From Marivita sp. S6314 (GTDB lineage Bacteria > Pseudomonadota > Alphaproteobacteria > Rhodobacterales > Rhodobacteraceae), in assembly GCF_023015985.1 (NCBI RefSeq), contig NZ_JALKAO010000001.1, positions 1 through 64,000 on the forward strand: 64,000 nucleotides of DNA. The letters run 5' to 3'. The notes below the pieces were generated by a model. That model was not told the DNA's origin, did not search any database, and saw only the letters and a program-made list of their open reading frames with translations. The number at the start of each line of letters is the position of its first letter. Within the stretch, counting starts at the first letter, position 1. A program made the translations under genes and the position numbers. Shown here piece by piece: positions 46,205 to 50,487 of this stretch.

Positions 46205-46567
46205 TTACGCGTTGGCTTCGCGGATCTTGTTTGCCGCGTCCTTGTCAAAGGCAACGCCGTTTTCTTCCAGCAGCGCGTCCAGTTCGCCCGACAATGTCAT
46301 CTCGATGATGATATCGCAGCCGCCGACAAATTCGCTTTTGACATAAAGCTGCGGGATGGTGGGCCAGTCGGAATAGTCCTTGATCCCCTGGCGGATGTTT
46401 TCATCGGCCAGCACGTTCACGTCCTCGAACTCGACGCCCATGTAGTTCAGCACCCCGGCCACTTTGCTTGAAAAGCCACATTGCGGCATGGTTTTGGTGC
46501 CTTTCATGTACAGCACCACGTCGTTTGATTTGACGGTTTCGTCAATGATTTGTTTCGCGTCAGTCAT
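46205..46567 (-). CDS. grxD: Monothiol glutaredoxin, Grx4 family
   Basis: The 120-residue protein has the CGFS active site at Cys30 ([12 protein letters not shown]), the glutathione-binding [19 protein letters not shown] and the characteristic TKTMP motif. CGFS glutaredoxins carry and transfer 2Fe-2S clusters, usually in complex with BolA. Here the gene lies one small gene downstream of a BolA gene on the same strand. It overlaps the end of that small gene by 8 bp. Confidence 0.96.
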
Positions 46568-46706
46568 TGTCTTGCTCCATGCGTTCGCGGCGTTTCCGAT
46601 CGCGCCGAATATACGGCATCGTTGCGCCGTACGTAATGAGGCCGACCAGCGCAAGCGCGCCAAGGACCGGCCAGGTGTTGTTAAGGAAAGTCAGAATCCA
46701 GTCCAA
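46560..46706 (-). CDS. Small single-helix membrane protein (48 aa)
   Basis: A 48-residue frame starts at a TTG and reads [20 protein letters not shown], then [28 protein letters not shown] single transmembrane helix is followed by a highly basic cytoplasmic tail. It starts 4 bp after the BolA stop and its TGA overlaps the Grx4 start by 8 bp, so it is embedded in a translationally coupled bolA-small-grx4 unit. No ribosome binding site is evident, consistent with coupling from BolA. Function unknown; the tight arrangement suggests a role in the same Fe-S pathway or a mere fellow traveller. Confidence 0.65.
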
Positions 46707-46710
46707 ACGA

Positions 46711-46953
46711 TTAGTCCGGCGCCCGCGTGGTCAGCGCAAGGGCATGCAGTTCGCCTTGCGAACCATCCATCTTGCCCTTCAGCGCCGCATAAACCGCGCG
46801 CTGTTGCTGAACCCGGTTCTTGCCCTTGAAGCTGTCGTCGATCACTTCGGCGGCGTAGTGATTTCCATCTCCCGCCAGATCGGTGATCGTGATTTTTGCA
46901 TTTGGAAATTCGGCCCGGATCAGGTCTTCGATTTCCTGCGCTTGCATGGCCAT
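46711..46953 (-). CDS. BolA-family protein
   Basis: The 80-residue protein has the BolA pattern: EIEDLIRAEFPNAKITITDLAGDGNHYAAEVI, then FKGKNRVQQQRAVYAAL and a Gly-Glu-Leu-His-Ala segment (QGELHALALTT). The conserved histidines of GNHYA and ELHAL are the usual Fe-S ligands shared with a CGFS glutaredoxin. The ATG at 46953 has GGAG 9 bases upstream; a start 18 bp earlier is less probable. First gene of the BolA-small-Grx4 unit. Confidence 0.92.
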   Translation of the reverse strand: MAMQAQEIEDLIRAEFPNAKITITDLAGDGNHYAAEVIDDSFKGKNRVQQQRAVYAALKGKMDGSQGELHALALTTRAPD

Positions 46954-47025
46954 GTGGCAGCACTCCGTCATGTGATCGTGAAAGATGTATGTTGCAGAAA
47001 CGTTATGCGCAAGGCGGCGACCAAA

Positions 47026-47808
47026 TCAGGCGTCCAGTGCCACCCAAACGGGGACGTGGTCGGACGGTTTTTCGCGGCCACGCACGGCCGATTCAATCCA
47101 GCAATCGCTTAGCAAATCGGCGCAGGCCGGGGTCAGCAGGAAATGATCGATGCGGATGCCGTCATTCCGGTCCCACGCGCCCGCCTGATAATCCCAGAAC
47201 GAATAATGCCCGCCACCATGGGTGCGGGCGCGGAACGCTTCGGTAAAGCCAAGGTTCAGGATTTCGCGGAACGCCTGCCGCGTTTCGGGGCGAAACAGCG
47301 CATCCTCGACCCAGCGTTCAGGCTTTTTCGCATCCTCGGCTTGCGGGATCACGTTATAATCGCCTGCCATCAGCGCGGGCATTTCATCATTCAGCAAATC
47401 CTGCGCGCGCGCCTTGAGCCGTTTCATCCAGGCCAGCTTGTAATCGTATTTGGGGCCCGGTGCCGGGTTTCCGTTGGGAAGATACAGGCCACAAAGCCGC
47501 ACGGCGGTGGTGTCGCCGATCACGGTCGCCTCGATCCAGCGCGCCTGTTCGTCGCTGTCATCACCGGGCAGGCCCCGTGTCACATCCTCCAGCGGCAGCT
47601 TCGACAGAATGGCGACGCCGTTGAAGCCTTTCTGGCCATGCGTCTCGACCCGGTAGCCCAGGTCTTCCAGCGCCTCGCGGGGGAATGCCTCATCAACCGA
47701 CTTGATCTCCTGCAACAGCGCAACGTCAGGCGCGCTTTCGCGTAGCCAGTCGGTCAGCGCAGGCAGGCGCGCCTTGATGCCGTTGATGTTAAACGTGGCG
47801 ATTTTCAT
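47026..47808 (-). CDS. xth: Exodeoxyribonuclease III
   Basis: The 260-residue AP endonuclease/3'-exonuclease has the full motif set: MKIATFNINGIKARL, LLQEIKSVDEAFP with the metal-binding Glu34, LYLPNG, the catalytic GDYNVIP, and the C-terminal IRIDHFLLTP and KPSDHVPVWV. It processes abasic sites in base excision repair. Normal length for XthA. Monocistronic; divergent from the FTSGS-repeat gene across a 342-bp region. Confidence 0.96.
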   Translation of the reverse strand: MKIATFNINGIKARLPALTDWLRESAPDVALLQEIKSVDEAFPREALEDLGYRVETHGQKGFNGVAILSKLPLEDVTRGLPGDDSDEQARWIEATVIGDTTAVRLCGLYLPNGNPAPGPKYDYKLAWMKRLKARAQDLLNDEMPALMAGDYNVIPQAEDAKKPERWVEDALFRPETRQAFREILNLGFTEAFRARTHGGGHYSFWDYQAGAWDRNDGIRIDHFLLTPACADLLSDCWIESAVRGREKPSDHVPVWVALDA

Positions 47809-48150: not shown

Positions 48151-48879
48151 ATGACCGCACTTCGTAAAATCGAAATTACTGAAAATTCCGTTGACGCACA
48201 GCAGGATACGGGCGTTTCCCGCAGCCTTCATGGCGGTGATGCAACAGCTCTGTTCACATCCGGCTCTGCACCCATGGCGTCAGCCGACGCGCTCTTGGGG
48301 GACGCCGTCGAAATGTTCACCTCCGGGTCCGCGCCACTGACCAGCTCAACAGCGCTGACCGGCGACGCAACAGGCCTGTTCACCTCCGGCTCCGCCCCAC
48401 AAAGCACATCCGCAAGCACCGGTGATGCGGTCGAGCTCTTCACGTCCGGCTCGGCACCGACAACGTCCGACGCTCGCACAGGTGACGCGGTTGAAGCGTT
48501 CACATCCGGTTCCGCGCCAACCACGTCCGACGCCCGTACAGGTGATGCAGTTGAGGCGTTCACATCCGGCTCTGCGCCAACCACATCAGACGCCCGCACA
48601 GGCGATGCGGTAGAGGCGTTTACGTCCGGCTCAGCTCCGACCACGTCCGATGCCCGTACAGGTGATGCGGTTGAGGCGTTCACGTCCGGCTCTGCACCAA
48701 CCACATCTGATGCCCGTACAGGTGATGCGGTCGAAGCGTTCACATCCGGCTCTGCTCCGCTGACAAGCGATGCGACAACCGGCGATGCGGTTGAGGCGTT
48801 CACCTCGGGGTCCAGCCCAACCACGGCCGAGCGGACCAGCGACGGCGAAGGTTGCGCGCTTTTCACCTCTGGGTCCTGA
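48151..48879 (+). CDS. FTSGS-repeat protein
   Basis: The 242-residue protein has a 28-residue N-terminus (MTALRKIEITENSVDAQQ onward, the only part with lysine) ending in HGG, followed by eleven repeats of about 20 residues; four are exactly GDAVEAFTSGSAPTTSDART. Every repeat holds FTSGS, and the protein ends on FTSGS. One Cys (235) is in the last, shorter unit. No signal peptide, membrane segment or enzyme motif. I recall a Rhodobacteraceae family with FTSGSAP, perhaps DUF6749, unverified. A ribosome site GGAGG precedes the ATG. It is 58 bp upstream of the next gene. Peptide precursor or scaffold are possibilities. Confidence 0.85.
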   Translation: MTALRKIEITENSVDAQQDTGVSRSLHGGDATALFTSGSAPMASADALLGDAVEMFTSGSAPLTSSTALTGDATGLFTSGSAPQSTSASTGDAVELFTSGSAPTTSDARTGDAVEAFTSGSAPTTSDARTGDAVEAFTSGSAPTTSDARTGDAVEAFTSGSAPTTSDARTGDAVEAFTSGSAPTTSDARTGDAVEAFTSGSAPLTSDATTGDAVEAFTSGSSPTTAERTSDGEGCALFTSGS

Positions 48880-48937
48880 CCCCTGATTTGACCCGGGGCG
48901 GGCGGTTGTCCTGTCCCTTCCAAAGGAGATATGGATC

Positions 48938-50011
48938 ATGACAAATGTCATCGAATTTACACCCCCGTCCCGGATCAATCCTCAGGAAGCGCGTCTCGGC
49001 GCGCTTCTGAGCTGCTTTGCCGAACACCGCCGGTTTGGTGATGACGTGTTCTGGCTCAAGGAAAACGCGGAAATCCTGAACATTCTGGAAAGCACCGGAA
49101 CCGGACCGGGCGAAGCCGCGCTTGCGCCTTACGCCGCGTTCTACGAAAGCCTCGAAAAACGCATGCGGTTTTTCCCGCAATATTATCGTTTTTTCCTGTC
49201 CATCGCGCTGGACCTCGAAGATCTCGGCATGACGGGCAACCGCGCGGAATCGCTGGTGGCCTGGGCCGATGCGCAGGATTTGCCACAAGCGGAACTGTCC
49301 GATCTGCAGCGCCTTGAAGCGGTTCGCCTGATGGCCCGCCGCGGTATTCGTTCCAATGGCGATGTCCCGGCGCTGGAAGACCGCGCGAGGGCCTTCATGG
49401 CACGTTCGGACACCTTTGCCTTGCCCAACAAGAAAGCCGCGTACGAGCTGACCCATATCGTGTTCTACCTGAGCGAATATGGTCGGAAGGACCCGCATTT
49501 GGACGCCGCTGCCAAGCGCAGTCTGCATTTCGCGGGTCTGCTGGCCTTTATCGAACAAAACGCCGACCTGCTGTCAGAGATTTGCATCGCCATGCATTTC
49601 GCAGGGGAGACCCCGCCGGATCTTTGGACAGACTGGCTGCAACGCGAAACAGCGTTGTTTACCGTGCAGGACGGACCCGATGTCAGCGTGCAGGACGATT
49701 ACCACGAATTCCTTGTCTGCAACTGGCACCAATCCGTTGTTGGCGATGCGGCCTTTGCCAAGGGTTTTGTCTATGACCGCATGCGGTTCGATCACAGCCA
49801 ATGGCGCGCCGCGCCGATGCGCGAAATGTCCGAAGCGATGTTCAATCTTGATGACGCGCGCAGCGGCGATTGGGGATCAATGCGCCTGCACATGGAAGAC
49901 GCGCTGTCGCCAGAAGCGATGACCGTGCTGTCCCAGGCCGAAACCTCATCCGCCCATTTCGAAGCGTTTTTCCACGGGTTTGCGCGCGCCGATGCTGGCA
50001 CGGTCCATTAG
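48938..50011 (+). CDS. Helical protein of unknown function, partner of FTSGS-repeat protein
   Basis: The 357-residue protein is predicted almost all alpha-helical and cytoplasmic. The best-marked stretches are FGDDVFWLKENAEILNILES, MRFFPQYYRFFLSIALDLEDL, the central PNKKAAYELTHIVFYLSEYG and LLSEICIAMHFAG. The YELTH-x4-YLSEYG pattern resembles an alpha/alpha-barrel or DUF6902-like family, from memory and unverified. Immediately downstream of the repeat gene on the same strand, with its own GGAG site. A processing, modifying or binding role for the repeat protein is inferred. A 3'-UTR element with two hairpins follows its stop. Confidence 0.75.
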   Translation: MTNVIEFTPPSRINPQEARLGALLSCFAEHRRFGDDVFWLKENAEILNILESTGTGPGEAALAPYAAFYESLEKRMRFFPQYYRFFLSIALDLEDLGMTGNRAESLVAWADAQDLPQAELSDLQRLEAVRLMARRGIRSNGDVPALEDRARAFMARSDTFALPNKKAAYELTHIVFYLSEYGRKDPHLDAAAKRSLHFAGLLAFIEQNADLLSEICIAMHFAGETPPDLWTDWLQRETALFTVQDGPDVSVQDDYHEFLVCNWHQSVVGDAAFAKGFVYDRMRFDHSQWRAAPMREMSEAMFNLDDARSGDWGSMRLHMEDALSPEAMTVLSQAETSSAHFEAFFHGFARADAGTVH

Positions 50012-50081: not shown

Positions 50082-50405
50082 CTACATCGAAAAACTTGTG
50101 CCGCATCCGCAAGAGGATGTGGCATTCGGATTTTCGATCACAAACCGCGCGCCGATCAGTTCTTCGGAAAAATCAATCACGGCATTGGACAGGAACGGTA
50201 GAGACACCGAATCCACGACCACGCGTTCGCCCTGACCCTCAAGCACCAGATCATCCTCGGCAGGGTCGTCCAGCTTGATTTCGTATTGAAAGCCTGAACA
50301 TCCCCCGCCTTCCACGGCAATGCGCAAGGCTTTGCCTTCGGCGCTGGCCCCGATTTCGGAAAGCCGCTCGAATGCGCGGGTGGTCACGGTGGGAGGAAGC
50401 TGCAT
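50082..50405 (-). CDS. A-type iron-sulfur carrier (HesB/IscA/ErpA family)
   Basis: The 107-residue protein has the three cysteines of A-type carriers: Cys in GGGCSGFQYE and the C-terminal Cys pair in SSCGCGTSF. It receives and delivers Fe-S clusters. The N-terminal MQLPPTVTTRAFERLSEIGA fits ErpA-like proteins of this family. Start at 50405 with GAGGGCGAT upstream; a longer start is not family-like. Divergent from the dGTPase gene, an arrangement common in alphaproteobacteria. Confidence 0.93.
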   Translation of the reverse strand: MQLPPTVTTRAFERLSEIGASAEGKALRIAVEGGGCSGFQYEIKLDDPAEDDLVLEGQGERVVVDSVSLPFLSNAVIDFSEELIGARFVIENPNATSSCGCGTSFSM

Positions 50406-50487
50406 ATCGCCCTCGGATTGCTTTAAATTCTGCGTTGCCCCGAATATAAGGGCTGTTGGGACAGGCGACAAGAACAGGCGGGCGGCG

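Follow-up and report, generated by a model that had tools for sequence, protein, structure and literature searches.

A tandem-core precursor gene and its DUF6902 neighbour in Marivita suggest an undescribed family of bacterial modified peptides

The precursor gene and its partner in the window

The window analysed here, a 64,000-nucleotide stretch of the genome of Marivita sp. S6314, carries two adjacent genes, P0001 and P0002, on its forward strand (Table 1). A first-pass annotation had described the product of P0001 as a 28-residue N-terminus ending in GG followed by eleven 20-residue units, each with FTSGS and the last one ending exactly at the stop codon. We found eleven exact FTSGS pentapeptides, starting at residues 35, 56, 77, 97, 117, 137, 157, 177, 197, 217, and 238, with the last one at the stop codon as described. 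The unit length, however, is not constant, as three of the ten spacings are 21 residues (21, 21, then 20 seven times, then 21), and the GG is located at residues 28 to 29, its second glycine opening the repeat unit (G-D-x-x-x-x-F). Neither could the GG be upheld as a leader cleavage site or a double-glycine (C39) signal, since XGG[DE] precedes the first unit in just 5 of 23 leaders, a subset of the 137 collected. The M-T-A-L-R-K type start of the leader is common to other precursors. Nine different 15-nucleotide spellings encode the eleven identical pentapeptides, so the repeat pattern exceeds what would be expected by chance.

P0001 showed only weak matches in Pfam, NCBIfam, and PHROGs and none in PADLOC. 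A match to the FlmA family RiPP profile (NF052472) was rejected at 14.1 bits against a cut-off of 30 (E = 0.039); FlmA-type proteins are peptide-arginase precursors, and we found no link to P0001 in the accessible part of the paper on them (PMC12703449). Among ten other precursors, some pass the whole-protein cut-off of a Pfam family (e.g., CH or Herpes_UL35) with no single stretch passing, which we read as scores summed over the repeats. Judging from its residues, the N-terminus of P0001 has no hydrophobic secretion signal. No RNA family was matched at gathering level, and promoters and terminators were not in excess over shuffles. A 231-residue antisense ORF (48228 to 48923, minus strand) mirrors the repeats of P0001, and we regard it as a mere shadow of this gene.

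P0002 begins with an ATG at 48938, confirming the gap of 58 bp that had been given between the two genes. Its protein had been said to lack recognised domains, which is wrong: it matches Pfam DUF6902 (PF21843) over residues 1 to 351 with an E-value of 3.2e-175 and 582.6 bits (cut-off, 27). A partial match to DUF6895 (PF21836) covers residues 31 to 229 (E = 5.7e-22, 78.9 bits, cut-off 23.8); because DUF6902 fits better, we call P0002 a relative of DUF6895 and not a member. No match was found to a cofactor-binding family in Pfam or NCBIfam, to a TPR or DNA-binding family in Pfam, or, at E-values up to 1, to the calcineurin-like metallophosphatases in Pfam. A sequence search of the PDB for relatives of DUF6902 returned none, apart from one chance match (E = 2.4). 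A full-text search of one open library found no publication on DUF6902, and FTSGS, among the matches listed, referred by title and abstract to skin-graft surgery.

Table 1. Features of the cassette and of its borders in the window
Feature	Coordinates	Strand	Basis or remark
xth-like gene (Pfam Exo_endo_phos)	47026..47808	-	Pfam; left locus border, outside the system
AGGAGG, ribosome-binding-site-like, 5' of P0001	48140..48145	+	Inferred from sequence only
P0001, candidate multi-core precursor gene, 242 aa	48151..48879	+	ORF, ATG 48151 to stop 48879
N-terminal leader of P0001, residues 1-28	48151..48234	+	M-T-A-L-R-K type start
Eleven FTSGS cores in 20/21-residue units, G-D/E-x-x-x-x-FTSGS-(A/S)P-linker	48253..48876	+	Last core abuts the stop codon
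AAAGGAGA, ribosome-binding-site-like, 5' of P0002	48922..48929	+	Inferred from sequence only
P0002, DUF6902 protein, 357 aa, proposed core-modifying enzyme	48938..50011	+	PF21843, PF21836, profile match, conserved residues
Motif YELTHIVFYLSEYG, P0002 residues 169-182, shared with DUF6895 (YxxTHxxFYxxDFG)	49442..49483	+	Alignments
erpA/iscA-like gene (Pfam Fe-S_biosyn)	50082..50471	-	Pfam; right locus border, outside the system

A repeat precursor adjoins DUF6902 at a fixed chromosomal site

DUF6902 was detected in 108 of 394 genomes sampled from the same family, the genome of the window included, and in none of 14 control genomes. A class-wide sample of 385 genomes yielded five matches, namely, the genome of the window, three of the same family, and one of another family (G039), where the match is below the DUF6902 cut-off and the gene looks DUF6895-like, with a precursor-like ORF of its own. 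We failed to find any match in plasmid records or viral contigs. Among the best 80 of 395 relatives, the nearest named ones belong to Marivita species, with 75 to 82% identity. One DUF6902 gene, 60% identical to P0002, is on a contig (L229) titled Enemella evansiae, which we take to be an actinobacterium; contamination or mislabelling is the likely cause of this assignment.

To count pairings, two duplicates (L025 and L027) and one half of a gene divided between two contigs (L021) were set aside, and the pool of 201 loci was reduced to 155 with non-identical enzymes (46 dropped as identical over the compared stretch) and then to 148 with at least 700 nt upstream (7 dropped). An ORF ending within 700 nt upstream of DUF6902 and containing one 5-mer at least three times was present at 135 of the 148 loci, a count that was unchanged when unknown residues were excluded. 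By eye, ten of the other 13 have a shorter precursor with fewer copies (L071, L094, L095, L103, L106, L108, L111, L115, L118, and L120), L057 contains an N gap, and no precursor is present at L102 or L121. A repeat precursor thus lies directly upstream of DUF6902 at 145 of the 148 distinct loci, with a median gap of 64 nt, and a similar criterion applied downstream (800 nt, both strands) gave 5 of 142. With P0001 as the query, a homologue was found in all three Marivita genomes and, as a check of sensitivity, in all ten DUF6902 genomes of ten other genera, and there was no match in 15 of the 16 same-family genomes that lack DUF6902; the weak match in the sixteenth (7.6e-4), inside a 1,507-residue frame, is read as chance. 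At one locus (L115, 2199 to 2855, plus strand), two different precursor-like ORFs, with FTSGS-type and FGSSC cores, precede a single DUF6902 gene.

The idea of a multi-core precursor with a modifying partner, put forward in the first-pass annotation, is well supported by this comparative genomics. It was to be given up if the partner occurred mostly without FTSGS genes, and taken literally that is the case, FTSGS being the core of 24 of 148 called precursors; in substance, however, the objection fails because the partner nearly always adjoins a repeat precursor with another core.

Unlike most RiPP clusters, the DUF6902 locus is a fixed chromosomal site. Among 92 loci of 7 kb, genes that we take to be xth (Pfam Exo_endo_phos), erpA (Fe-S_biosyn), and dgt (HD) were present in 91, 81, and 77, respectively, with the DUF6902 locus between xth and erpA. 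The distance from xth to DUF6902 is 272 to 1,555 nt (median, 897), and that from DUF6902 to erpA has a median of 43 nt without and 971 nt with an EamA gene, so that in most cases little beyond the precursor and the EamA gene would fit. No processing protease or leader peptidase was found between the border genes xth and erpA. In the window, a glutaredoxin gene, a BolA gene, and the xth-like gene are on one side of the cassette (46208 to 47808), and the Fe-S_biosyn gene is on the other (50082 to 50471).

An EamA-type gene follows DUF6902 directly on the same strand, at a median offset of 20 nt, in 109 of the 149 loci with at least 1,100 nt downstream, and all seven that were scanned match Pfam EamA. 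Its presence requires at least 15 changes on the enzyme tree. Sixteen of the 40 loci without it are of the Marivita type; it is absent from the locus in Marivita, and three Marivita genomes have distant paralogues only (34% identity or less). The usual unit in most genera is therefore precursor, DUF6902, and transporter, of which the window has the first two, and a description as two genes and nothing else was dropped. The export partner once suggested for P0001 would exist in most relatives as this third gene, but it is not DUF6902 and is missing in Marivita. Among 16 genomes of the family without the cassette, 13 have xth and erpA within one stretch with neither DUF6902 nor an EamA-type match, in some of them only about 30 to 90 bp apart; this is the empty site. 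None of the stretches from the 16 genomes contains an EamA-type gene.

Cores are uniform within and variable between precursors

Cores were called for 148 of the 155 loci as 49 strings, of which three are register errors (L050, L098, and L124, corrected by eye for the tree count), so about 46 pentamers remain. The commonest are FSSGS (26), FTSGS (24), FTSWS (18), and FTSGL (11), and many occur singly, such as IMSAS, FTNWC, MMCCS, and MAQSF. A precursor has 2 to 20 copies (median, 7), spaced by 20 (524 times) or 21 residues (344 times). In 95 of 148 precursors, among them all those with FTSGS (24), FSSGS (26), FTSGL (11), or FTSGA (5), the last core abuts the stop codon; a tail of five residues follows it in 14 of 19 of the FTSWS types. 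Three precursors (L076, L091, and L095) mix two cores, e.g., FSSGS with FSTSC, and are possible intermediates of a core switch.

We compared the units of 127 proteins with at least three units by anchoring them on G[DE] only, which leaves the identities and codon tallies of some proteins out of register. Core positions 2 to 5 showed a within-protein identity of 0.78 to 0.79, compared with 0.36, 0.63, 0.36, and 0.36 between the modal residues of different proteins; position 1, mostly F, showed 0.72 within and 0.74 between. Within proteins, the identity was 0.45 to 0.54 in the upstream flank, 0.27 to 0.41 in the linker, and 0.54 and 0.69 in the x-P after the core. The core was more uniform than the flank in 112 of the 127 proteins (Wilcoxon, 5e-20), and some of the 15 others are register errors of the anchoring. 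The ratio of nonsynonymous to synonymous codon-pair differences between units was 0.54 in the core, 2.33 in the flank, and 3.83 in the linker, which indicates selection on the core. A core that is uniform beyond its surroundings is not explained by simple copying, which would even out whole units, and gene conversion could add to this uniformity.

Between species, the cores turn over repeatedly. A FastTree phylogeny of 145 enzymes with 45 core types requires at least 69 core changes. Positions 2, 4, and 5 require 43, 29, and 28 changes, compared with means of 60, 57, and 45 for shuffled labels, and the W-type cores, found in 31 of the 145, require just 5. The cores are partly clade-bound in this sense, so the match between enzyme and core may be closer than would be expected of an enzyme that reads the flank alone. 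Six cores occur among the 16 Marivita-type loci with a call, and two enzymes that are 95.5% identical (L030 and L189) accompany, respectively, a precursor with seven copies, every one FTSGS, and a precursor with six, every one FSSGS.

Kinship with DUF6895 and the proposed function

When the profiles of 99 DUF6902 and 7 DUF6895 proteins were compared, the match had a probability of 97 and an E-value of 1.3e-10 over 195 columns. The positions common to both are Y169, T/S172-H173, F176, E/D180, G182, D210, E214, and Y255-H256 in the numbering of the window protein. In an alignment of 99 of 120 enzymes (the 21 left out are mostly close relatives, and two are truncated), H173 and D210 are each conserved in 97, and E214 and H256 in 98. 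H173 is missing solely in L102 and L121, the latter also being without H256, and these are the two loci without a precursor, likewise without an EamA-type gene. That the loss of His173 coincides with the absence of the precursor, in two loci and noticed after the fact, is suggestive and not proof; possibly these are decayed or repurposed copies.

A DUF6895 protein is reportedly a lasso-peptide epimerase, going by the title of work by Shi et al. from 2026. We looked at 11 DUF6895-type loci, drawn from Alphaproteobacteria and another proteobacterial group as well as from Bacillota and Actinomycetota; one of them (L151) was placed with DUF6895 by eye and matches DUF6902 only below the cut-off, and G518, which looks unrelated, and G507 were left out as PF21836 matches below the cut-off. 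A precursor-like small ORF is upstream in 10 of the 11, which supports the view that the whole DUF6902/DUF6895 superfamily may be precursor-modifying. It adjoins the DUF6895 gene in seven (L138, L139, L140, L144, L145, L146, and L151), where the leader is roughly SG[IL][IVL][DN] and the core aromatic, and in three Streptomycetaceae loci (L147, L237, and L238) an LLLSP-type ORF is separated from it by one other gene. The remaining one, L141, is a short fragment without a precursor-like ORF. Two of the Streptomyces loci are on plasmids (L147, 2451 to 6603; L237, 3876 to 6916), with a small LLLSP-type peptide gene, a family-less gene, and two tandem DUF6895-type genes, and in L147 a P450 gene is upstream of this set. 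At L138 (2119 to 7741), two paralogous precursor-like ORFs and the DUF6895 gene are near genes for a C39-like/C70 cysteine peptidase, an MFS-type transporter, and a methyltransferase-like protein, possibly a fuller RiPP-like cluster.

We consider it probable, at roughly 0.7, that P0001 and P0002 form a multi-core RiPP-like system in which DUF6902 modifies each core, most likely by epimerisation. The precursor would consist of a leader of about 30 residues and many units, each with a recognition flank (G-D/E-x-V/T-x-x), a core pentapeptide (F-T-S-G-S in Marivita), and a linker. DUF6902 would act on each core by reading the constant flank, letting the core change. Since the last core so often ends the protein, cleavage may occur just after the core, and in precursors whose last core abuts the stop codon, the core end would be the working C-terminus of the product. 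In most relatives, the EamA-type transporter probably exports the small product; Marivita would have lost it or never gained it. As in RiPP pathways, the precursor gene adjoins the enzyme gene across species, and the recognition region is conserved with a core that varies between species. Counting against this reading are the fixed chromosomal site, the lack of a recognised protease between the border genes, the absence of the transporter gene from Marivita and from 40 of 149 loci in all, and the partly clade-bound cores.

The reaction itself is more tentative, and we would put epimerisation, taken on its own, at a little under an even chance. An L-to-D epimerisation of a core residue appears the likeliest chemistry because of the conserved His, Asp, and Glu residues and because the related family DUF6895 includes a protein named a lasso-peptide epimerase in a title cited by PMC13352647. 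Another reaction in the same RiPP-like system, such as dehydration, cross-linking, or proteolysis, is a possible but less probable alternative. At core position 3, 141 of 145 have Ser (127), Thr (10), or Cys (4), which would suit side-chain chemistry, and the homology to DUF6895 is remote; P0002, however, has no Pfam or NCBIfam match to a cofactor-binding family, and epimerisation is the only reaction that we found reported, by title, for a DUF6895 member.

It is doubtful, though conceivable, that the system makes a species-coded peptide signal. The many copies would be given a D-residue by DUF6902 and released by the EamA-type carrier (in Marivita, by general export), and core switches across a whole precursor would create new signal types, as in bacterial pherotypes. 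The EamA-type gene of most genera lends more support to the RiPP-like and the signal readings and less to a scaffold.

In signalling of the Rap-Phr type, a C-terminal species-specific pentapeptide is encoded beside a partner gene. That the repeat protein is similarly the source of a pentapeptide signal and DUF6902 its binding receptor, not an enzyme, seems unlikely to us. Species-specific pentapeptides, a core that forms the very C-terminus of 95 of 148 precursors, coordinated core switching, and cores partly clade-bound with the neighbouring protein would all fit such a pair. On the other hand, P0002 matches no TPR or DNA-binding family, the precursor has many copies and no hydrophobic secretion signal at its N-terminus, DUF6902 proteins that are 95.5% identical serve different cores, and the related DUF6895 is reported, by title, as an epimerase. 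It is also quite improbable that the repeat protein has a structural or scaffolding role and is never cut, DUF6902 serving it as a chaperone or binding to it: the long uniform repeats and the lack of a recognised protease between the border genes would agree with it, but a scaffold has no need for cores that are identical within a protein and replaced wholesale between species while the linkers diverge, 109 of 149 loci have a transporter gene after DUF6902, and the precursors of the DUF6895-type relatives are short and contain one or two cores. Neutral tandem repeats from replication slippage, with a function not tied to the neighbour, would account for near-identical neighbouring units in some precursors but are hardly credible given the pairing at 145 of 148 loci, the ratios of 0.54 in cores and 3.83 in linkers, and the nine spellings of one pentamer in P0001.

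The RiPP-like system proposed here resembles several known ones in part. Multi-core RiPP precursors of fungi and plants, such as the dikaritins, have many identical cores between divergent linkers, as P0001 does; P0001 differs in being bacterial, in its enzyme, and in having no secretion signal. In the FxSxx-COOH system (TIGR04268), a radical SAM partner adjoins the precursor. Many DUF6902-linked precursors likewise have F-x-S-x-x at the C-terminus, but cores such as IMSAS, MMCCS, and MAQSF break this motif, P0001 had no TIGR04268 match in the NCBIfam scan, and gene order and the Pfam families of the neighbours gave no sign of a radical SAM gene inside the borders of the locus in the window. 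The likeness to DUF6895 extends from remote homology and the YxxTHxxFY motif to conserved D/E and YH positions and an upstream precursor-like ORF, whereas DUF6902 is a Pfam family of its own, detected in our samples in a single alphaproteobacterial family, and its precursors, with 2 to 20 cores mostly of the F-x-S-x-x type, show no leader likeness to those of DUF6895. MslH, the peptide epimerase of the lasso peptide MS-271, is described in the accessible part of its report as using two His/Asp pairs (PMC10406935); DUF6902 would similarly use acid/base chemistry on a ribosomally made precursor, through putative His/acid pairs, although MslH has a calcineurin-like fold and P0002 has no metallophosphatase match. 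A study of Sulfitobacter RiPPs covers DUF692, P450, and S9 peptidase clusters and, in its accessible part, does not mention the precursor/DUF6902 pair (PMC11278168).

The system is real and widespread and appears to work like a RiPP pathway; we call it RiPP-like, modification and release of the core being putative. That related bacteria retain the two genes while the peptide differs hints at a family of modified bacterial peptides not described before, a widespread family of multi-core peptides in cultivable marine bacteria together with the enzyme family DUF6902. As a single enzyme family would serve some 46 natural cores, it would offer a ready-made test of how recognition is separated from the core, and it may be a source of D-amino-acid peptides from a single small enzyme.
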